From Psychroserpens luteolus (GTDB lineage: Bacteria; Bacteroidota; Bacteroidia; Flavobacteriales; Flavobacteriaceae): a stretch of DNA of 64,000 nt. A model generated the notes under the pieces. The model was given only the letters and a program-made list of their open reading frames with translations, was not told the origin of the DNA and did not search any database. Of this stretch, positions 27,255 through 41,709 are shown piece after piece (the stretch's first letter is position 1; every line of letters starts with the position of its first letter). Position numbers and translations under genes: made by a program. Location: positions 1-64,000 of the forward strand of contig NZ_JAHVXI010000003.1 in the NCBI RefSeq assembly GCF_021032705.1, written 5' to 3'.

Positions 27255-29660
27255 TTATTCTCCTATAAAATGCAACTCTGTAAACTCCTTATCTATAATC
27301 ATATTAGAAACACCATTTGTTTTTACATGATCTAAAGGAACTATTACATTATCCAATTGGATTTCTTTAATTTCAAAAGGCAAACCATGAATTCTAAGTT
27401 CGAAGGTTTTGTATTTAGCATTAAATTTTCCTTCTTTATGTTGCTGAATAATTAGCTCGTTAGACTTTCCTAAAAGCTTAAAACTACGCAAACTGTAACG
27501 CCCTTTAGTATAATCATAGCCATCATGAGCATCATCAAACAACTGTGACCGCTCCTTTCCCTTTTTATAATATACGTCCAAAATAACAGAATCGATCTTT
27601 TTTTCACCAACATATTGTTGTTTTGGGTACTTCGGAATAATAGCGCCTTCTTTAATATAGATTGGCATACTATCAATATCTGCATCAACCCACATCTCCT
27701 TGCCTCCTTTTACAACAGCATCGGTCCAAAAGTCATACCAATTGCCTCTAGGAATATACATACGACGTCCCTTAGCATTAGGCTCTAAAACTGGACATGC
27801 CAAGATTTGATTTCCAAAAACAAACTCATCTGTTCTATAATGTGTATGCACATCTTCTTGATCGTATAGTACAAGCGATTTTAGCAATGGTGTACCATCT
27901 TCGACATAATTCCAAAATGCAGTATATAAATAAGGAAGTAATTCGTAACGTATTTCAATAAACTTCCGTACAATATCTGTTACATCTGTATCAAAAGCCC
28001 AAGGTTCTTGATCTCCATGATCTCCCGAAGAATGAACTCTAAAAAACGGATGAAAGATTCCTAGTTGAATCCAACGTGTAAATAATTCGCCTTGAGGTTG
28101 CTCTGCAAATCCTCCAATGTCACTTCCTGCAAAACTAAATCCAGACATTGCCATACGTTGCGCTTGTACATTTGCTATCCATAAATGTTCCCATGTCGCC
28201 ACATTATCACCTGTCCATGTGGATGTATAGCGTTGAGTACCAGAATATGCTGCACGAGTAATCACGAAAGGTCGCTTTGGGTAGGCAAACTTTTTTAAAC
28301 CTTGATAGGTCGCTCGAGCCATTTGCATTCCGTATATATTATGTGCTTTTCTATGACTGCAAGGATTTCCATCGTAATCGTGACGTACATCATCTGGAAA
28401 TGTTTTATTAGGAACTTCCATAACAGCAGGCTCATTCATATCGTTCCAAACCCCTTTTACTCCAATGTCTTCTATAAGTTCCTTAAACAATCCTGACCAC
28501 CAGTCTCTTACTTCTGGTTTAGTAAAATCTGGGAAATAACAATCTCCTGGCCATACTTTACCCTTCATGTAAGGCCCATCTGCACGTTTACAGAAGTAAT
28601 CCTTATCTAGCGCCTCTTTGAATACTGAATAATCTTTATCTATTTTAATTCCTGGATCAATTATAACTACGGTCTTAAATCCATCATCAGCCAACTCTTT
28701 TACCATGCGTTTAGGATCAGGAAAATAATCTTTATTCCATGTAAAACACCTAAAACCCTCCATGTAATCTATATCTAAATAAATAGCATCACAAGGGATT
28801 TTCAACTTTCGGAATGTAGAAGTTATATCTTTGACCTTGCTCTCTGGATAGTAACTCCATTTACATTGATGAAACCCTAACGCCCATAAAGGTGGTAATA
28901 AGTGTGGTTTCCCAGTCAAGTCTGTATAGCTCTCAACGACTTCTGTCATTTTAGGTCCGTAGATAAAATAATAATTCATCTCTCCGCCTTGAGCCCAAAA
29001 ACTAGTCACATTACGACGTTCGTGTGCAAAATCAAAAAACGAACGAAACGAATTATCAAAGAAAATACCATAAGCTCTATTGTGGTGTAATCCCGTATAA
29101 AAAGGAATGGCCTTATAAATTGGATCTGTTTCTTTTCCGTAGGCATATGAATCAGTGACCCAATTCTCATAGCGTTTCCCTTTTAAATTAAGATGATTGG
29201 GTTTATCACCTAAACCAAAATAACTTTCACCATCATGGGAGCGTTTGCTCATTTTGACAATATCTCCTCCATATTCATAGCTCTCTTCCCAGTGGAATCC
29301 AATTTCATCTTGATTGATTTCTAAACCATCTTTTGCATCAAATAACGTCACCTTAAGGTTACGTTTATTAACGTGGCAAATTAATTTAGAGGTTGTGATC
29401 TTATAAAATTCATTAGTATCATCAATATCAAGATGATTATAGCCTGTACTGGCATATTTGGTAATAGCATAAGAGAAGTCATTTTCGAACTTCCCAGTTG
29501 TTGAATATCTAAAACGCAATACACTATCACGTAATACTGTAAGCTGAAGCACTACATCATTTTTGGTAGTGAAATACAACGTATCAACGTCTTTCTTAAA
29601 ATCTATGATTTTGGACGGAAATAAGTTTCCTTTACTTTCTAATTCTGTATTGACTATCAT
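27255..29660 (-). CDS. Glycoside hydrolase family 31 (alpha-glucosidase-like)
   Basis: 801 residues, no signal peptide, so probably cytoplasmic. N-terminal beta domain, then the (beta/alpha)8 barrel with PLWALGFHQCKWSY and the catalytic nucleophile Asp407 in GVWNDMNEP; the acid/base Asp is in TWTGDNVATWEH; then GSDIGGF and FFRVHS. Cleaves alpha-glucosides such as maltose or malto-oligosaccharides; exact specificity is not visible. It follows glgB but has its own upstream region with a motif shared with glgE. Residues and length fit full function. Confidence 0.92.
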   Translation of the reverse strand: MIVNTELESKGNLFPSKIIDFKKDVDTLYFTTKNDVVLQLTVLRDSVLRFRYSTTGKFENDFSYAITKYASTGYNHLDIDDTNEFYKITTSKLICHVNKRNLKVTLFDAKDGLEINQDEIGFHWEESYEYGGDIVKMSKRSHDGESYFGLGDKPNHLNLKGKRYENWVTDSYAYGKETDPIYKAIPFYTGLHHNRAYGIFFDNSFRSFFDFAHERRNVTSFWAQGGEMNYYFIYGPKMTEVVESYTDLTGKPHLLPPLWALGFHQCKWSYYPESKVKDITSTFRKLKIPCDAIYLDIDYMEGFRCFTWNKDYFPDPKRMVKELADDGFKTVVIIDPGIKIDKDYSVFKEALDKDYFCKRADGPYMKGKVWPGDCYFPDFTKPEVRDWWSGLFKELIEDIGVKGVWNDMNEPAVMEVPNKTFPDDVRHDYDGNPCSHRKAHNIYGMQMARATYQGLKKFAYPKRPFVITRAAYSGTQRYTSTWTGDNVATWEHLWIANVQAQRMAMSGFSFAGSDIGGFAEQPQGELFTRWIQLGIFHPFFRVHSSGDHGDQEPWAFDTDVTDIVRKFIEIRYELLPYLYTAFWNYVEDGTPLLKSLVLYDQEDVHTHYRTDEFVFGNQILACPVLEPNAKGRRMYIPRGNWYDFWTDAVVKGGKEMWVDADIDSMPIYIKEGAIIPKYPKQQYVGEKKIDSVILDVYYKKGKERSQLFDDAHDGYDYTKGRYSLRSFKLLGKSNELIIQQHKEGKFNAKYKTFELRIHGLPFEIKEIQLDNVIVPLDHVKTNGVSNMIIDKEFTELHFIGE

Positions 29661-29752
29661 GTAGCAATTTATTTTGTAAGATGAATGTAAAAAAACGGAA
29701 AAAAAGGCGTGAAAAAAAGCATTGTAATTACTTATTACAGTGAATTATTAAC

Positions 29753-29765
29753 TACAACGTTTGCG
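29753..29765. promoter_or_regulatory. Shared 13-bp motif upstream of the GH31 gene
   Basis: TACAACGTTTGCG, with a CG-centred AACGTT core as in LacI-family operators. The same 13 bases occur at 35393-35405. The motif is 92 nt upstream of the GH31 ATG, in the 157-base gap after glgB. ATTATTAA lies just to its left, as at the other site, at slightly different spacing. Confidence 0.5.
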
Positions 29766-29817
29766 GTTTTGAATAGTTTAAAAAAAATGAGATTTTTATC
29801 TTAAAAATTAGAACCTC

Positions 29818-31725
29818 TTATTCATATTTGAAGGCTATCATTCCTAATGGTGGAATTGTAATTTCTGTAGAATGCTCTCTAAATTGCCATGCAATTTTAT
29901 CAGATGTCAACACCTCATTTTTAAAATCTCCTGTTCCAAAATAAGCTTTTAAATCACTATTGAACACTTCTTTAAGTTTTCCTTTCTTCGGAAGGCCAAT
30001 ACGATAACTTTCTCTTGCCATTGGTGTCATATTACATGCTATTACAAGATCATCCTTTCGCTTCTCTCCTTTTCTGATATAAACCAAAACAGAATTCTCG
30101 GCATCATTATAATCTATCCATTCAAAACCTTCAGCTGAAAATTGCTTTTGGTGCAATGCAGGCTCAGTTGTATACAATAAATTTAAGGCTTTTAATAACT
30201 CTTGAACACCTTTATGAGGTGCATGATCTAATAAATGCCAAGCTAAGCTTTGTTGAAAATTCCATTCTTCACTTTGTCCAAATTCTGCACCTTGAAATAA
30301 CAAGTTAGTTCCAGGATGTGTAAACATATAACTATACAATAATCTTAGATTAGCAAAGCGTTGCCATTCATCACCAGGCATTCTACCTAAAATGGAGCGT
30401 TTTCCATACACAACTTCGTCATGACTTAAAGGCAACATGAAATTTTCAGTAAACGCATAGGTCATTGAAAAGGTAAGATCGTTTTGATGATGTTTTCTAT
30501 ATATAGGTTCTTTAGCAAAATATTGCAAGGTATCATGCATCCATCCCATCATCCATTTCATACCGAACCCTAAACCACCTAAAAAAGTTGGTTTTGACAC
30601 CATTGGAAAGGATGTGGACTCTTCGGCTATGGTTTGAACATCTGGAAACATGCTATAGACCGCTTCATTCATTTCTCTTAGAAACGCCATCGCTTCAAGA
30701 TTTTCTCTACCTCCATACATATTTGGCTCCCATTCCCCTTCATTTCTACTGTAATCTAAAAATAACATTGATGCAACAGCGTCAACGCGTAGCCCATCTG
30801 CATGGAATTGGTCTAACCAAAACACAGCGTTACTTATAAGAAAGGATTTAACCTCATTTCTTCCGTAGTTAAAAATAAGGCTCTTCCAATCTGGATGATA
30901 CCCTTTTCGCTTATCGGGATGCTCATATAGGTTTGAACCATCAAAGAATCCTAAACCATGTGCATCTTCAGGAAAATGAGAAGGTACCCAATCTAGGATT
31001 ATTCCAATATCATTTTGATGGAGTTTATCTACCAGCAATTTAAAATCTTCAGGGTAACCAAATCGTGATGTTGGTGCAAAGTAACCTGTAAGCTGATAGC
31101 CCCAACTCGGATCATAAGGATACTCCATAACTGGCATAAGCTCGACATGCGTAAAGTTCATATCTTTAAGGTAGGCTACCAGTTCATCTGCCAACTCTTG
31201 ATAACTTAAGAAACGATTCTCGTCTAACTTGCGTTTCCATGAACCGAGATGAACTTCATAAACTGAAAATGGCGCATTAAGTGCATTATGTTTTTTACGC
31301 TTTTTCATCCATTTACTATCATTCCATTTGTAGGGCTCATCCCAAACTACAGAAGCTGTTTTCGGCGGATGCTCGCAACGTCTTGCATATGGATCTGCTT
31401 TTTCAGTTTTAATATCGTTATTATGACTTTGAATCTTGTATTTATAAGTACTTCCTTTACCAGCTCCAGGAACAAAACCTTCCCATATACCGCTTTCGTC
31501 CCAACGAACATTAAGCTTATGAGTCCCTTCTACCCAAAAATTGAAATCGCCAATGACAGAAACCATTTTAGCACTTGGTGCCCAAACTGCAAAATAAGTG
31601 CCTTCCACACCATCTAATGTCATGATATGCGATCCCATTTTTTCATATAATTTATAATGCTTTCCTGCTTTGAATAAATCGATATCAAAGTCGGTAAAAA
31701 GACTATGTGCTATTACATCTGCCAT
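29818..31725 (-). CDS. glgB: 1,4-alpha-glucan branching enzyme (GH13)
   Basis: 635 residues. N-terminal CBM48 domain (YFAVWAPSAKMVSVIGDFNFW), then the GH13 barrel with nucleophile Asp315 in GLRVDAVAS, acid/base Glu368 in TIAEES and the third acid Asp436 in LSHDEVVYGK, and a C-terminal beta domain. It makes alpha-1,6 branches in glycogen-like glucan. It starts three bases after the maltokinase stop, in an operon with maltokinase and glgE. Confidence 0.96.
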   Translation of the reverse strand: MADVIAHSLFTDFDIDLFKAGKHYKLYEKMGSHIMTLDGVEGTYFAVWAPSAKMVSVIGDFNFWVEGTHKLNVRWDESGIWEGFVPGAGKGSTYKYKIQSHNNDIKTEKADPYARRCEHPPKTASVVWDEPYKWNDSKWMKKRKKHNALNAPFSVYEVHLGSWKRKLDENRFLSYQELADELVAYLKDMNFTHVELMPVMEYPYDPSWGYQLTGYFAPTSRFGYPEDFKLLVDKLHQNDIGIILDWVPSHFPEDAHGLGFFDGSNLYEHPDKRKGYHPDWKSLIFNYGRNEVKSFLISNAVFWLDQFHADGLRVDAVASMLFLDYSRNEGEWEPNMYGGRENLEAMAFLREMNEAVYSMFPDVQTIAEESTSFPMVSKPTFLGGLGFGMKWMMGWMHDTLQYFAKEPIYRKHHQNDLTFSMTYAFTENFMLPLSHDEVVYGKRSILGRMPGDEWQRFANLRLLYSYMFTHPGTNLLFQGAEFGQSEEWNFQQSLAWHLLDHAPHKGVQELLKALNLLYTTEPALHQKQFSAEGFEWIDYNDAENSVLVYIRKGEKRKDDLVIACNMTPMARESYRIGLPKKGKLKEVFNSDLKAYFGTGDFKNEVLTSDKIAWQFREHSTEITIPPLGMIAFKYE

Positions 31726-31728
31726 AAA

Positions 31729-33360
31729 TCAATTATTAATAATGTTTGAAATACCTTTTAGAGGAATTACTGCCCAACGCGGACGAGAGTTAAGTTCATA
31801 TCCTAGTTCATAGACTGCTTTTTCTAACATAGCATATTTCAGTAAAAAAATACGTTCTTGATGGTATCCAATATTTAAATTGGCATCTTGGATTTTTAAA
31901 ATATAAGTGCCTAAAAACACCCCTTTTAAGTATTGATATAAGATTTCTCCAGCATCAAAAAGTTCTTGCTGATCATGTTTATACAATTCGATATTATTAA
32001 ATATCGTCGCGTAAATCGCATAGTGGAACGAACGAAACAAACCAGCCACATCCTTTAAAGGTGGTTGTTTTACCTTACGGTCACGAATAGTGCTTTCTGG
32101 TTCACCTTCGAAGTCTAAAATATAAAAGTCGTCATCTTTGACGAGCACTTGCCCTAAATGATAATCTCCATGAACACGAATACGTTCACCTTTTAATTTC
32201 GTCCAATCAAAATTTACAAAGCGCTTTCTTATCTCATTTTTTTTGTCAAGAAACTCATGAGCTAGTTCTAAGGCCAAACCTTCTAGTTTATGCAAACTGT
32301 TTTCAATGGTGTTTAGTCTATTTTGAAATTGATATAAGAGCCTGTTTTTTAACCAAACTGTGTAGTCGCCATTAAAATGCGTTGGTGTAAATGAGTTGTC
32401 TTCAAACTCGCTACCCAAAGCAATATGCATTTCAGCTGTTCGCTTGGCTAAAGTTTGAATTTTAGTAAAGACATTAAGTCCTACCCAATCAATAATTTCT
32501 GGTGGCACATCTGCAATTTGAAATCGTCCAAAATCTTCAGTTTTAGGCAATTTTGAAATATCAATCTTTTTATATTCTAGGTTTGAAAACACCTTATGGA
32601 ATTCGGTAAGCATATACTCCCAAGCGTCCCCTTGATTTTCTACCATTTCTTGCATCAAACCAATAGTAATATTGACGTTTTCATGATCTTTAATTTGAAT
32701 ACTTCCGAGGTAAGCTGGTGTGTTTTTAAAATCTTTTTTATCAGATAAAAAACGGCTCATCTCATAATCTGGATTACGATCGGCATAGATACGTCTGAAA
32801 AATTTCAATACATACTTCTCATTATAAACAATGGATGTATTGCTTTGTTCCATTCCCATAAAACGAGACGATTCATAACTTACATTGGTAAATAATTCAC
32901 TTTTATGATAACTTACTCGAGTGCGATCTTTGGGTCGTGCTGTTAATATGCGTTCAAAAACAACTTTTCGAAAGGCTTCAAGATTTATGGCATCAATTAT
33001 AAACCCTTTTTGATCTTGAATACTTATAGGCAGAATCCTATCGTCTTTGGCAAAATTTTCATCTGAAACAAATGCAATGGGTAAAAAATAATGCTGATAG
33101 AAAGCTTCGGTAAAATTCACCTCTAGAATCAAGCCATAATAGACTTCATCATGCTGCTGAATTCTAAAGTACTCTGCAAGTTCAATGTATTTGAGCTGAC
33201 TCGCTTTCCCACCATACCAACGTTGCTTAATAATATAATCCTCCAAAATATCAGACAAGAACACCTTAATGAATTCTTCATTTTCGAGAAGTGTCTCCCA
33301 TGAATTGCTAAAATTATAGGGAGGTTTCAACACTGACGTTTTTGTAACTTTCTTAGCCAT
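31729..33360 (-). CDS. Maltokinase (Mak/Pep2-like)
   Basis: 543 residues. An N-terminal cap (KQRWYGGKASQLKYIELAEYF) and a kinase-like fold with the catalytic loop VHGDYHLGQVL and ILDFEGEP (DFG-like). It phosphorylates maltose to maltose-1-phosphate, the GlgE substrate. ATG 33360 is one base from the glgE stop (33362); the longer reading with an extra 18 residues upstream overlaps glgE and is unlikely. Assignment rests on motifs and on lying between glgE and glgB. Confidence 0.9.
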   Translation of the reverse strand: MAKKVTKTSVLKPPYNFSNSWETLLENEEFIKVFLSDILEDYIIKQRWYGGKASQLKYIELAEYFRIQQHDEVYYGLILEVNFTEAFYQHYFLPIAFVSDENFAKDDRILPISIQDQKGFIIDAINLEAFRKVVFERILTARPKDRTRVSYHKSELFTNVSYESSRFMGMEQSNTSIVYNEKYVLKFFRRIYADRNPDYEMSRFLSDKKDFKNTPAYLGSIQIKDHENVNITIGLMQEMVENQGDAWEYMLTEFHKVFSNLEYKKIDISKLPKTEDFGRFQIADVPPEIIDWVGLNVFTKIQTLAKRTAEMHIALGSEFEDNSFTPTHFNGDYTVWLKNRLLYQFQNRLNTIENSLHKLEGLALELAHEFLDKKNEIRKRFVNFDWTKLKGERIRVHGDYHLGQVLVKDDDFYILDFEGEPESTIRDRKVKQPPLKDVAGLFRSFHYAIYATIFNNIELYKHDQQELFDAGEILYQYLKGVFLGTYILKIQDANLNIGYHQERIFLLKYAMLEKAVYELGYELNSRPRWAVIPLKGISNIINN

Positions 33361-33361
33361 T

Positions 33362-35299
33362 TTACTTATGTATCTTAAATATATGAAATGGAAGTGTTGG
33401 ATGTAACTCAACAAAATTCCATTCGTTATGCCAATTATAACTACTGCCTGTTACCAAATCTTCAACTCTAATTTGTTGTCCATTATGACTATTTAAATCC
33501 TGCATTGGTAATTGAACATTGCCTTGCTGTGCATAATACTGATCTAAACTTATAATAATCAACACCTCATTTGTACGGTCGGTATTCCATTTATAAAAAG
33601 CAAGTAAATTGTCATTTTCTATGTTACAAAACTTAATGTTATTAGTTTGCTGTAAAGCTTCATTCTCGTGTCTAATGGCATTGATTTTTGAAATAAGCAA
33701 TGTTAATTTATTCTCTTTAAACCAATCATAATGTTTTAACTGAAATTTTTCAGACATGTAATATTCCTCTTTGCCAGGTATGGCATCACTAATCATGTGT
33801 TCAAATACAGGTCCGTAGATACCAATACTCGAACTTAAAGTTGCCGCCAGTGCATAACGCTGAAGGTATTTGGACTCATTAGCGCCTTGCAAATGAAAGG
33901 GATTGATATCTGGAGTATTTGGCCAAAAGTTTGGTTGCATATATTCACGTTGATCTGTTTGTGTCAACTCTGTCATATATTCAATAAGCTCGTGTTTATT
34001 ATCACGCCATGTAAAATACGTATATGACTGTGTGTAGCCTTCTTTTGCCAATCGCTGCATAACTTTTGGCTTCGTAAATGCCTCAGCTAAAAAGATTACA
34101 TCTGGATGCTGTTTTTTGACTTCTGAAATAAGCCAATTCCAAAAAAAATAAGGCTTAGTATGTGGATTATCAACCCTAAATACATTAATACCACAATCTA
34201 TCCAGTATAGCATTGTGTCTAAGCATTCTTTCCAAAGATTTTTATAATCACTACTTTCCCAATAAATAGGTAGAATATCTTGATATTTCTTAGGGGGATT
34301 CTCAGCATATTGAACAGTTCCGTCTGGTCTCCATTTAAACCAATCTGGATGCGAATTCACCCATGGATGGTCTGGAGCTGCCTGCAAGGCATAATCCATA
34401 GCGATTTCAATACCAAGAGTTTTTGCTTTCTTTACTAAACGTTTAAAGTCTGTTATAGATCCCAACTCTGGATGTAAATCTTTATGTCCACCATACTTAG
34501 AACCAATTCCCCAAGCAGATCCTACATCACCCTCTTTGGCTTCGGTAGTATTGTTTTTTCCTTTTCTATTTACTTCTCCAATAGGGTGAACAGGTGGAAA
34601 GTACAGCGTATCAAATCCCATTTCTGCTACTCTAGGCAAAAGACGTTCACAATCTTTGAAAGTTCCATGTTGTCCTTCGGTTTCAGATGAAGAACGCGGA
34701 AAGAATTCATACCATGTACTAAATCTCGCTTTTTTTCTATCCACATACACTTGAAAGTCTTGAGTTTCATTAATCAAATGCTTTTGAGGGTATTTAAAAA
34801 ATATATCGTGCAGTTTTTTGCTTTTAGCTGCTTTAATAGCAGCAGTATATTTAGAATCGTTCTTAAAATCTGAGATGCACTGTTCTAAATACGTCTTCTC
34901 CGTTTTTGTAGCCTTCTTTAAAAGTGGCACCAAATAAGTAACACCCTCTAAAAGTTCAGACTTCACATGCTGATTATCATCTATTTTTCGTTCAATTCCA
35001 TGTTGCCAATTCAATGCATAATCTACCCAACCTTGCACTTTATATGCATAAAACCCTTGTTTCTCCATTATAAAAGAAGATTTCCATTCGTCATTTTCAA
35101 CATGATGCATTCTGGTTTCGCTCCATTGGCGGTCTTTTTCATGCTTGAATAATACAGCGGCAGCAATTACATCATGACCATCAACTAGTACATGAGCATC
35201 GATGTTGACAATTTCATTTTTAATTCGCTTTATAAAAAAATCTCCGCAGTTAATTTGAGGTGATACTGCATCAATTACAACACGTCTTTGGTTTTGCAT
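33362..35299 (-). CDS. glgE: Alpha-1,4-glucan:maltose-1-phosphate maltosyltransferase
   Basis: 645 residues. N-terminal DUF3416/CBM-type domain (RVVIDAVSPQINCG...), helical insert, GH13 barrel with WYEFFPRS. Nucleophile Asp377 in FRVDNPHTK and acid/base Glu406 in FLAEAF; their 29-residue spacing equals that in Streptomyces GlgE. It extends alpha-1,4-glucan from maltose-1-phosphate. First gene of the operon glgE-maltokinase-glgB. Confidence 0.96.
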   Translation of the reverse strand: MQNQRRVVIDAVSPQINCGDFFIKRIKNEIVNIDAHVLVDGHDVIAAAVLFKHEKDRQWSETRMHHVENDEWKSSFIMEKQGFYAYKVQGWVDYALNWQHGIERKIDDNQHVKSELLEGVTYLVPLLKKATKTEKTYLEQCISDFKNDSKYTAAIKAAKSKKLHDIFFKYPQKHLINETQDFQVYVDRKKARFSTWYEFFPRSSSETEGQHGTFKDCERLLPRVAEMGFDTLYFPPVHPIGEVNRKGKNNTTEAKEGDVGSAWGIGSKYGGHKDLHPELGSITDFKRLVKKAKTLGIEIAMDYALQAAPDHPWVNSHPDWFKWRPDGTVQYAENPPKKYQDILPIYWESSDYKNLWKECLDTMLYWIDCGINVFRVDNPHTKPYFFWNWLISEVKKQHPDVIFLAEAFTKPKVMQRLAKEGYTQSYTYFTWRDNKHELIEYMTELTQTDQREYMQPNFWPNTPDINPFHLQGANESKYLQRYALAATLSSSIGIYGPVFEHMISDAIPGKEEYYMSEKFQLKHYDWFKENKLTLLISKINAIRHENEALQQTNNIKFCNIENDNLLAFYKWNTDRTNEVLIIISLDQYYAQQGNVQLPMQDLNSHNGQQIRVEDLVTGSSYNWHNEWNFVELHPTLPFHIFKIHK

Positions 35300-35392
35300 T
35301 TTGTTGGTTAATTGAGTGTTAAGAATGTGAAATTAATAAAATAAGATGCAATTTTCATCAATAATTTACTAATAAAAGCCGATTATTAAATT

Positions 35393-35405
35393 TACAACGT
35401 TTGCG
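35393..35405. promoter_or_regulatory. Shared 13-bp motif upstream of glgE
   Basis: The same TACAACGTTTGCG, in the same orientation, 93 nt upstream of the glgE ATG and 58 nt upstream of the divergent msrB ATG. The matching distance to that at GH31 (92 nt) argues for a functional operator rather than chance. Confidence 0.5.
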
Positions 35406-35463
35406 TAAGTTCAAGTTTTTTATTTCGACAGAAGAAAACATAAAAAAACCATATTTTTACTCT

Positions 35464-35946
35464 ATGAAAAAGATTATCACACTATTTACAATTATGCTAT
35501 TTTTTAGTTGTAATTCTTCAGCACAAAAAACAAAAGCCAAAGAAGAAAAAGTGTATCCAGTTACAAAAACTGATGCCGAATGGAAAAAAGAACTCACAAG
35601 TGAGCAATATTATGTATTGAGAGAAGCCGGAACAGAACGACGATACTCTAGTTCGTTAAATAAAGAAAGTCGCAAAGGTATCTATCATTGCGCTGCTTGC
35701 GATACACCGTTATTTAAAAGTGAACACAAATTTGATTCGGGTACCGGTTGGCCAAGTTTCGATAGAGAGATTGAGGGTAATGTAGACTATTCTGTAGATT
35801 ATAATTTAGGTTATGCCAGAAATGAGGAACATTGTGCGACCTGTGGAGGGCATCTTGGACATGTTTTCAATGATGGACCTAGAAAAACAACTGGAAAACG
35901 TCACTGCATTAATGGTGTAGCTTTAAAATTTGTTCCCGAAAAATAA
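35464..35946 (+). CDS. msrB: Methionine-R-sulfoxide reductase MsrB, exported
   Basis: 160 residues from ATG 35464 (an upstream TTG at 35401 is open but gives no better start). A lipoprotein-type signal peptide (TIMLFFSCNSS) precedes the MsrB fold. Zinc CxxC pairs in YHCAACD and CATCGGHLGHVF, SGTGWPSF, and catalytic Cys in RHCINGVALKF. Repairs oxidised methionine in envelope proteins. Divergent from glgE. Confidence 0.93.
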   Translation: MKKIITLFTIMLFFSCNSSAQKTKAKEEKVYPVTKTDAEWKKELTSEQYYVLREAGTERRYSSSLNKESRKGIYHCAACDTPLFKSEHKFDSGTGWPSFDREIEGNVDYSVDYNLGYARNEEHCATCGGHLGHVFNDGPRKTTGKRHCINGVALKFVPEK

Positions 35947-40553: not shown

Positions 40554-40800
40554 GAAAAAACATATAATTCTATGTATTTCATCGGCAAAATAGTGTATTT
40601 CAACGAATTATTAGTAAAAATGAATATTTTTAAGGCTCCTCTATTTTTTTAACTATAACTGATAATAAATATTGATCACATGCTATTAGTACTACTTAAA
40701 ATTTCAGTCTTAAATATCATTAATTTAAGATGCCTTCAACTTAATATTTTGCAGTATTTTTGAAGTGAATTATCACGAGACTCAAAACCAAGTTTGTTCA

Positions 40801-41709
40801 ATGAAATGGCAAAACGCACTCCATGATTATAAATACTATCTCAAAATTGAGAGAGGTTTATCTGCAAATTCAATTGCCAACTATGAGTTAGATGTTGAAA
40901 AGTTAATTAATTATTTAACTGTTAATGACATTTCAATTTCTCCTATACAAATTGAGCATGAAACTGTACAAGCTTTTATTTATGATGCTTCGAAACAATT
41001 AAACTCTAGATCACAATCTCGCTTAATATCAGGTTTGCGAAGTTTTTTTGGCTACTTAGTATTTGAAGATTACAGAACAACCAATCCGTTAGATCATATT
41101 GAATCTCCTAAAATAGGGCGTAAATTGCCAGATACGCTTTCCATTGATGAAATTGATGCCTTAATTAATGCCATAGATCTAAATAGAGAGTTTAATCGTG
41201 TACGAATTGGGGAACGAAATAGAGCTATTCTTGAAACCTTGTATAGCTGTGGGCTTCGTGTTAGTGAACTTGTTAATTTAAAACTATCAGATTTATTCTT
41301 TGATGAAGGTTTTATTAAAGTTACTGGAAAGGGAGATAAACAACGCTTTGTCCCTATTGGAACAAACACACAGAACTACATTAATATTTGGAAAGACATA
41401 AGAGTGCACATAAGCGTAGATCCAGAATACAAAGACACCTTGTTTCTTAATAACAGAGGAAAGCAACTCACTAGAGCAATGATTTTTACCATTATAAAAG
41501 ATTTAGCAAAAGCTATTAATCTAAATAAAGTAATTTCACCGCATACGTTCAGACACTCCTTTGCTACACATCTATTAGAAAATGGGGCCGACCTTAGAGC
41601 TATTCAACTCATGCTAGGTCATGAAAGCATTACGACCACAGAAATATATATGCATGTAGACCGTTCACATCTTAAAGATGTGTTGATGTCTTATCATCCT
41701 AGAAAATAA
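40801..41709 (+). CDS. xerD: Site-specific tyrosine recombinase XerD
   Basis: 302 residues from ATG 40801; a GTG at 40765 would add 12 residues. N-terminal SAM-like core-binding domain (YKYYLKIERGLSANSIANYELDV), then the catalytic domain with Arg in SCGLRVSEL, Lys in GKGDKQRFVP, HTFRHSFATHL, LGHESITTTEIYMHV with catalytic His and Tyr. It resolves chromosome dimers. No partner or dif-like site can be assigned here. Confidence 0.94.
   Translation: MKWQNALHDYKYYLKIERGLSANSIANYELDVEKLINYLTVNDISISPIQIEHETVQAFIYDASKQLNSRSQSRLISGLRSFFGYLVFEDYRTTNPLDHIESPKIGRKLPDTLSIDEIDALINAIDLNREFNRVRIGERNRAILETLYSCGLRVSELVNLKLSDLFFDEGFIKVTGKGDKQRFVPIGTNTQNYINIWKDIRVHISVDPEYKDTLFLNNRGKQLTRAMIFTIIKDLAKAINLNKVISPHTFRHSFATHLLENGADLRAIQLMLGHESITTTEIYMHVDRSHLKDVLMSYHPRK

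Follow-up and report, generated by a model that had tools for sequence, protein, structure and literature searches.

A conserved Flavobacteriaceae motif, probably a LacI-family operator, upstream of GH31 and GlgE-pathway genes in Psychroserpens luteolus

Glucan genes and their upstream sites

The window analysed here is a 64,000-nucleotide stretch of the genome of Psychroserpens luteolus, a member of the Flavobacteriaceae (contig NZ_JAHVXI010000003.1, positions 1 to 64,000). It holds a glgE-maltokinase-glgB unit and a GH31 gene, each with one copy of the 13-mer TACAACGTTTGCG upstream, and a divergent msrB-like gene faces the copy before glgE. This 13-mer is probably the core of an operator for a LacI-family regulator of central carbon metabolism. 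The genes and elements of the locus are as follows.

27255..29660, minus strand: GH31 alpha-glucosidase-like enzyme, 801 amino acids (Pfam PF01055 and others; 494 bits against NCBIfam MalA, under the cut-off of 800)
29688..29695, minus strand: putative -7 box of the GH31 promoter, TTTTTTTA then C, 63 bp from the operator CpG centre; as TTTTTTTAC, a weak match to the consensus TAnnTTTG
29750..29765, minus strand: predicted LacI-type operator before GH31, CGCAAACGTTGTAGTT on the gene strand (motif match and genus conservation)
29818..31725, minus strand: glgB, 1,4-alpha-glucan branching enzyme, 635 amino acids (TIGR01515 above cut-off)
31729..33414, minus strand: putative maltokinase, 561 amino acids, start uncertain (Mak_N_cap; TIGR02457 at 354 bits, cut-off 375)
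33362..35299, minus strand: glgE, maltose-1-phosphate maltosyltransferase, 645 amino acids (PF11896 and PF21702 above cut-off)
35328..35335, minus strand: putative -7 box of the glgE promoter, TAATTTCA, 63 bp from the operator CpG centre
35390..35405, minus strand: predicted LacI-type operator between glgE and msrB, CGCAAACGTTGTAAAT on the glgE strand (motif match and genus conservation)
35452..35459, plus strand: putative -7 box of msrB, TATTTTTA, 53 bp from the operator centre on the msrB side
35464..35946, plus strand: msrB-like methionine sulfoxide reductase, divergent from glgE (SelR PF01641; ATG at 35464)

Both copies of TACAACGTTTGCG reported in the initial annotation are exact and lie in the same orientation on the plus strand, at 29753-29765 and 35393-35405. 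Their distances of 92 nt from the GH31 ATG (29660) and 93 nt from the glgE ATG (35299) are as had been measured. Read on the gene strand, both copies are CGCAAACGTTGTA, which starts 105 nt before the GH31 ATG and 106 nt before that of glgE. There is indeed no further exact copy in the window. Thirteen other matches, all with 3 mismatches, bring the number of matches within 3 mismatches to 15, which is at the chance level (mean 14.6).

Because the AT-rich window holds 551 repeated 13-mers, a repeated 13-mer by itself means little. When the 200-nt upstream regions of the 57 longest non-overlapping open reading frames (ORFs) are compared, TACAACGTTTGCG is the only 13-mer common to two of them at an equal offset (within 2 nt). 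The view that chance rarely produces such a pair is borne out by randomisation: in 1000 Markov-randomised sets of 56 upstream regions, no 13-mer containing six or more G/C was shared at matching offsets. A shared 13-mer of any composition at matching offsets appeared in 174 of the same 1000 sets. The 3.84-Mb genome carries 3 exact copies of TACAACGTTTGCG and 2 with one mismatch, and its reversed sequence, used as a control, gives 0 exact copies and 4 with at most one mismatch. The pair is a real regulatory site and not a product of chance.

A shared regulatory site is also what conservation in the genus indicates. Same-orientation matches to CGCAAACGTTGTA with at most 3 mismatches are kept at -102 to -105 upstream of 14 of the 16 GH31 orthologues (G003 has 4 mismatches and G015 no match). 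They are kept at -94 to -120 upstream of 10 of the 13 glgE orthologues; among the remainder, G005 has 4 mismatches at -105, and G003 and G021 have no match. Mean identity across the motif is moderately raised, at 0.87 versus 0.68 overall upstream of GH31 (rank 13 of 148 windows of comparison) and 0.75 versus 0.65 overall upstream of glgE (rank 27 of 148). The best-conserved stretch upstream of both genes in the genus is the -7-like stretch near -40 from the ATG.

The expectation that the site would be conserved before GH31 and glgE in related genomes thus holds within the genus, but at glgE the site is mostly missing beyond it. No CGCAAACGTTGTA match precedes the GH31 orthologues of two genomes from outside the genus (G023 and G024). 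The Salinimicrobium glgE locus (L324) has no site within 3 mismatches, and the glgE loci examined from outside the family have none at the promoter position, with the exception of a 3-mismatch match in Dyadobacter (L331). The glgE copy of the site is local. The closest named glgE records by identity are from Winogradskyella algicola (82%) and an uncultured Psychroserpens (80%).

The suggestion that msrB could share the second site is consistent with its predicted -7-like box. Elsewhere, a site in G083 (L276) lies between msrB-like and glgB-like genes, named by sequence signature.

A family-wide motif and its targets

The 13-mer is one form of a wider motif, CGMAAWCGTTRTARTT. In 299 Flavobacteriaceae genomes this motif has 255 copies compared to 72 for the reversed control, a control that has GC where the motif has CG and may overstate chance. 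The copies are spread over 153 of the 299 genomes and 117 of 203 genera. The related pattern YKMAAWCGTTRTARWT has 69 matches (control 23) in 13 genomes of the genus and 1 match (control 7) in nine genomes from other families of the order. In the 145 genomes of a class-wide sample that are from outside the family, CGMAAWCGTTRTARTT has 8 matches and its control 22. The motif is real and widespread in the Flavobacteriaceae, and it is not above control in the sample from outside the family.

Ninety family sites were read, comprising one from each of 30 genomes and 60 taken mainly from multi-site genomes, and target classes were assigned from short signatures of neighbouring proteins. Of these sites, 65 precede signature genes, 17 are in other intergenic regions and 8 are in coding sequence. 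The most frequent target is fbp (23 sites), followed by the IPExxxVDY-pyk pair (12), sdaA (7) and SusC-like genes (7, of which 2 are divergent from a LacI gene). GH31 accounts for 4 sites, an unnamed secreted protein for 3, and CBM48 and pfkA for 2 each, with single sites at pgk, pdhA, glgB, glgE and an MFS transporter. Loci beyond the 90 add eno and, in another genus (G234), glgE. One example each of sdaA, pfkA, pgk, eno, fba, pdhA, glgE, MFS and SusC was checked against family models, as were examples of fbp, CBM48, pyk and IPExxxVDY. The name 'SusE/F-like' for the three secreted proteins was withdrawn when the one tested gave no Pfam match.

Ten sites in the P. luteolus genome match with no more than one mismatch, and every one of them is upstream of a gene or gene pair. 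Their targets are the pyk operon, fbp, GH31, a biotin-dependent carboxylase operon, the CBM48/2TM-DHFR pair, fba, eno, glgE/msrB, a transporter/secreted protein pair and one secreted protein. The initial annotation had treated the motif as belonging to the glucan cluster. Both glucan units do have a site, but the site is not special to them and is part of a predicted family-wide central-carbon regulon. The exact 13-mer recurs in other genomes as 11 copies in 11 of 56. Three of these are inside ORFs, and eight of the 11 occupy a single intergenic region, flanked by genes for a CBM48 small protein and for 2TM-DHFR.

Some further sites and genes were noted in passing. The carboxylase site (C32:75826; L139, L415) is 50 nt before an operon for a biotin carrier, biotin carboxylase and carboxyltransferase, and it is also found upstream of this operon in four more genomes of the genus (G004, G006, G008, G009). 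At C11:398910 (L433), 8 nt upstream of aat, the leucyl/phenylalanyl-tRNA transferase gene, is CTATAACGTTATAG, a symmetric arrangement of the other half-site. An aat-like gene in G316 has an asymmetric site 21 nt upstream (C34:160551; L242). The window also carries a tyrosine recombinase gene of the phage integrase family (40765-41709, plus strand).

LacI-family genes as candidate readers

The half-site CGMAAWC with its central CpG resembles the operators of LacI-family proteins. Comparison of sequences makes a LacI-family regulator, as the initial annotation had proposed, the best-supported candidate reader of the motif, on the evidence of co-occurrence, of symmetric variants beside LacI genes and of replacement by symmetric operators.

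The P. luteolus genome encodes a type A LacI protein (C11:294528), whose gene is about 9 kb from GH31 and GH13-like genes and divergent from a SusC-like gene, and an orphan paralogue of type B (C32:109566). The sequence CGAAAACGTTTGCG lies between C11:294528 and its SusC-like neighbour. In the corresponding regions of G003, G013 and G014 there is a perfect palindrome, CGAAAACGTTTTCG. LacI-family genes were also found near other copies of the motif, where the earlier annotation had advised looking. The asymmetric motif itself separates a type A LacI gene from a SusC-like gene in two genomes, G168 and G126. The only PF00356 gene of G185 has the motif on its own strand, starting 137 bp ahead of the LacI domain.

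Symmetric forms also take the place of the motif at GH31. Nearly the same upstream position is occupied by CGAAAACGTTTTCA in Aureitalea (L313) and by CGAAATCGATTTCG in a Flavobacteriaceae metagenome-assembled genome (MAG; L302). The asymmetric CGCAAACGTTGTAGTT stands before GH31 in Flavobacterium stagni and in a Robiginitalea MAG. Twin CGAAAACGTTTTCG palindromes 20-21 bp apart, likely a twin operator, were seen in four genomes (L188, L191, L193 and L197, from G012, G005, G009 and G015) near a third LacI type, C, and SusC-like genes. This third type was recognised by MKPVTLKxIAETLNIS or by its position.

The motif and LacI-family genes co-occur across the family. With a close LacI homologue defined as a match to the type B query at E<=1e-20, the motif is present in 149 of 251 genomes with such a homologue compared to 4 of 48 without one (p=1.7e-11, in a test that takes genomes as independent). 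The reversed control shows no such difference (52 of 251 versus 8 of 48, p=0.69). The association persists when only genomes of at least 2.5 Mb are counted (143 of 231 versus 3 of 31). Among the four motif genomes that have no close homologue, the matches in G097 and G259 are inside ORFs and that in G160 is not at a known target; the fourth, G270, is considered below. This statistical link is observed, as are the motif, its conservation, its targets and its spacings.

Within the genus (G000-G016), type B is present in 16 of 17 genomes and type A in 14 of 17. When genomes are classed by E-value, the motif occurs in 58 of 79 with a B-like protein, 84 of 150 with A-like proteins only and 7 of 22 with weak matches only. 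A single LacI paralogue as the sole regulator is unsupported; the motif is also present in genomes that have other LacI proteins. The flavobacterial LacI paralogues that were read (L119, L186, L197, L270 and others) share a near-identical recognition-helix stretch, [ST]TVSKA. With a recognition helix so nearly in common, several paralogues may be able to serve one operator.

Promoter geometry, mode of action and known systems

The flavobacterial -7 box is TAnnTTTG at -12 to -5, according to PMC9723704. Spacing is defined here as the distance from the CpG centre of the motif to the first base of the -7-like box nearest the ATG, with slightly wider box patterns used for glgE, GH31 and the eno promoter of G143. 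At pyk the spacing is 62-64 in 20 of 20 distinct promoters, and it is 63 at fba and at pgk (one promoter each). Genus GH31 promoters have a spacing of 63 in 13 of 15 cases, and genus glgE promoters have 62-63 in 7 of 11 and 52-53 in 4 of 11. A spacing of 63 recurs at G234 glgE and G143 eno, and 53 is found at F. stagni GH31. Other targets have characteristic values of their own: 22-24 in 35 of 36 fbp promoters and 43 in both pfkA promoters. At sdaA the site is beyond the -7 box and would cover the transcription start in 7 of 7 cases. Within the P. luteolus genome the spacings are pyk 64, fba 62, eno 62, glgE 63, fbp 23 and msrB 53, with 44 for the acetyltransferase gene opposite fbp.

The 62-64-bp spacing at pyk, fba, eno, pgk and the genus glgE and GH31 promoters suggests activation from about -75. 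Five random spacings reach the observed concentration of helical phase with p=0.004, for five phase classes (63, 53, 43, 23 and -20) that were picked after the data had been seen and with the spacing misfits left out. From the fixed position, the use of either motif orientation and steps of about one to two helical turns, we infer a symmetric dimer, placed on one face of the DNA, that acts on RNA polymerase.

The motif is probably the operator of a LacI-family regulator that controls a family-wide central-carbon regulon and activates the window genes from upstream, with binding and sign deduced from the comparisons above. The 13-mer would be the core of a 14-16-bp operator, CGMAAWC followed by GTTRTARTT, for a LacI-family dimer, with CGMAAWC as the well-kept half-site and CTAYAAC as the degenerate one. 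Through this operator GH31 and the glgE-maltokinase-glgB unit, and probably msrB too, would join a regulon whose other members in the same genome are predicted to be fba, eno, pyk, fbp, the glycogen-binding CBM48 protein and the biotin-dependent carboxylase operon. The regulator would activate the pyk, fba, eno, pgk, glgE and GH31 promoters from upstream when sugar is plentiful, from an operator centre mostly 62-64 bp upstream of the -7-like box and at times about one turn nearer. At sdaA, where the operator is over the start site, it probably represses. At fbp, where the operator overlaps the -33 region, either activation or repression could result. Candidate readers in the P. luteolus genome are C11:294528, the LacI protein whose gene is divergent from a SusC-like gene near the alpha-glucan locus, and the orphan C32:109566.

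A number of observations weigh against this interpretation. When two mismatches are allowed, the P. luteolus genome gives 79 matches to the control's 177. Weak sites therefore cannot be called, and further targets at this level were dropped (20 of the 69 matches with two mismatches were read, and 18 of these overlap an ORF, as noise would). The symmetry of the motif is weak: by eye, and with W taken as A, CGMAAWC followed by GTTRTAG and its reverse complement agree at five of the seven half-site positions. In named-collection Flavobacteriaceae glgE loci (L296-L314) the site, with at most 3 mismatches, is present in 3 of 19 and missing from 16, and at the GH31 genes of these loci it is present in 5 of 11, twice in symmetric form, and missing from 6. 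The co-occurrence test also has its weaknesses beyond its treatment of genomes as independent. Lack of LacI is relative, since 13 of the 48 genomes were rescanned with PF00356 and 4 of them (G026, G112, G202 and G259) had a LacI-domain protein. Conversely, 102 of the 251 genomes with a close LacI homologue have no exact motif, and G202 has three PF00356 proteins and no motif. G270, a 99% complete genome, has a canonical fbp site and no PF00356 match and is a true exception. Motif genomes carry differing LacI paralogues, so that no single regulator is pinned down.

The geometry has its misfits as well. GH31 spacings in other genera depart from the pattern in 6 of 7 cases (two at 48-49, one at 26 and three with no box), the pdhA spacing is 92, and G342 glgE has no box at a phased distance with the patterns used. 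In the P. luteolus genome the carboxylase operon has a spacing of 12, 2TM-DHFR 17 or 35, and the transporter/secreted protein pair 69 and 35, and no -7-like box was found for the CBM48 site or for one secreted-protein site. Several promoters, including several of glgE, offer more than one -7-like candidate. For G270, recent loss of LacI, an assembly gap and a second kind of regulator are all options.

The same LacI-family operator might instead repress the window genes, for example by looping across the 5.64 kb that separate the two identical sites, with the regulator released by a malto-oligosaccharide. The two sites do flank the glgE-maltokinase-glgB unit, many LacI-family proteins are repressors, and the sdaA site would cover the start site in all seven cases. 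However, the 62-64-bp spacing is also that of pyk, fba, eno and pgk, each seen with a single site, and the glgE spacing shifts in steps of about one turn, and we regard repression as unlikely. Somewhat less likely again is a regulator of another family, such as a direct-repeat or monomer binder, with the LacI link as a correlate of lifestyle in sugar-using flavobacteria that have both. The asymmetry of the motif, the G270 fbp site and the fact that LacI presence does not guarantee the motif would fit this account. It is harder to reconcile with the symmetric LacI-type versions of the same half-site beside LacI genes, with the replacement of the motif by symmetric forms at GH31 in two other genomes, or with the asymmetric form between LacI and SusC-like genes in two genomes. 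A LytTR response regulator was considered when a LytS/LytTR set was found beside the P. luteolus CBM48 site. It was dropped because a LytS-like neighbour is present in one of eight other 3-kb loci (G006) and because the half-site is LacI-like.

Two other readings of the motif, as a core-promoter element or as a repeat due to chance, are scarcely credible. A TTG within the fbp motif does sit where a -33 element is expected, but at pyk, fba, eno, glgE and GH31 the site is far upstream of the -7-like box, and a core-promoter or sigma-factor element was rejected on this spacing. Chance is opposed by the randomised sets and by the family-wide enrichment before the same genes.

The closest known systems to the proposed LacI-family regulator are in other bacteria. 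Its likeness to CcpA and the cre operators of Firmicutes lies in a CpG-centred operator with one strong half-site, in the cre consensus TGWAARCGYTWNCW, most of whose left half matches CGAAAWCGTTRTAG, and in a target set of glycolytic, gluconeogenic and alpha-glucan genes, here predicted from sites. CcpA is also the closest solved relative of the type B protein and is tied with 3ctp for type A. The flavobacterial protein would work like CcpA without being CcpA. Types A and B score 148.0 and 153.8 bits against the CcpA equivalog model TIGR01481 (cut-off 442.35), the half-site starts with CG rather than TG, and the promoters are of the Bacteroidota -7/-33 type. The RbsR model NF047341, with a cut-off of 382, gives both proteins their best scores (189 and 191 bits), and no NCBIfam cut-off is passed.

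The operator of enterobacterial FruR/Cra is asymmetric, as is the motif here. FruR/Cra is likewise a LacI-family global regulator of glycolysis and gluconeogenesis, as described in a survey of the LacI family (PMC4052901). In contrast, types A and B score 128.9 and 141.9 bits against PRK11303 (cut-off 385), and the geometry suggests the opposite sign at glycolytic genes. The same survey describes PckR, GapR and GluR of Alphaproteobacteria, non-orthologous LacI-family regulators whose central-carbon regulons were predicted by comparative genomics and of which pckR and gapR are mostly away from their targets. These differ in lineage and in motif, GapR and GluR having 20-bp palindromes, and glgE or GH31 targets are not mentioned in the survey's section on global regulons. 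That section names CcpA, FruR, PckR, GapR and GluR, and the phylum Bacteroidota is represented in the survey by a single Bacteroides group.

A literature search, mostly without subscription papers, gave no described Flavobacteriaceae regulator that ties polysaccharide loci to glycolysis and storage, the titles that came up being on Bacteroides, SusD proteins or gut Bacteroidales, and a search on the motif letters found nothing relevant. The regulon is of a known kind, that of a LacI-family global regulator, with no description found for Flavobacteriaceae in the literature searched. A fuller version of the proposal is possible, and we offer it tentatively. It envisages a CcpA-like LacI global carbon regulator specific to the Flavobacteriaceae that would activate glycolysis and GlgE-type glucan storage from phased sites near -75 and would restrain gluconeogenesis and serine deamination from promoter sites. 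Its role would be passed between interchangeable paralogues, SusC-linked or orphan, with a single operator code preserved in over 100 genera.

The Flavobacteriaceae play a major part in degrading marine and soil polysaccharides, and the GlgE pathway is best known from mycobacteria. The operator code, the target list and the two candidate proteins would make central-carbon control readable from the genomes of more than 100 genera, and they would link the GlgE pathway to a likely regulator of carbon status in Bacteroidota.

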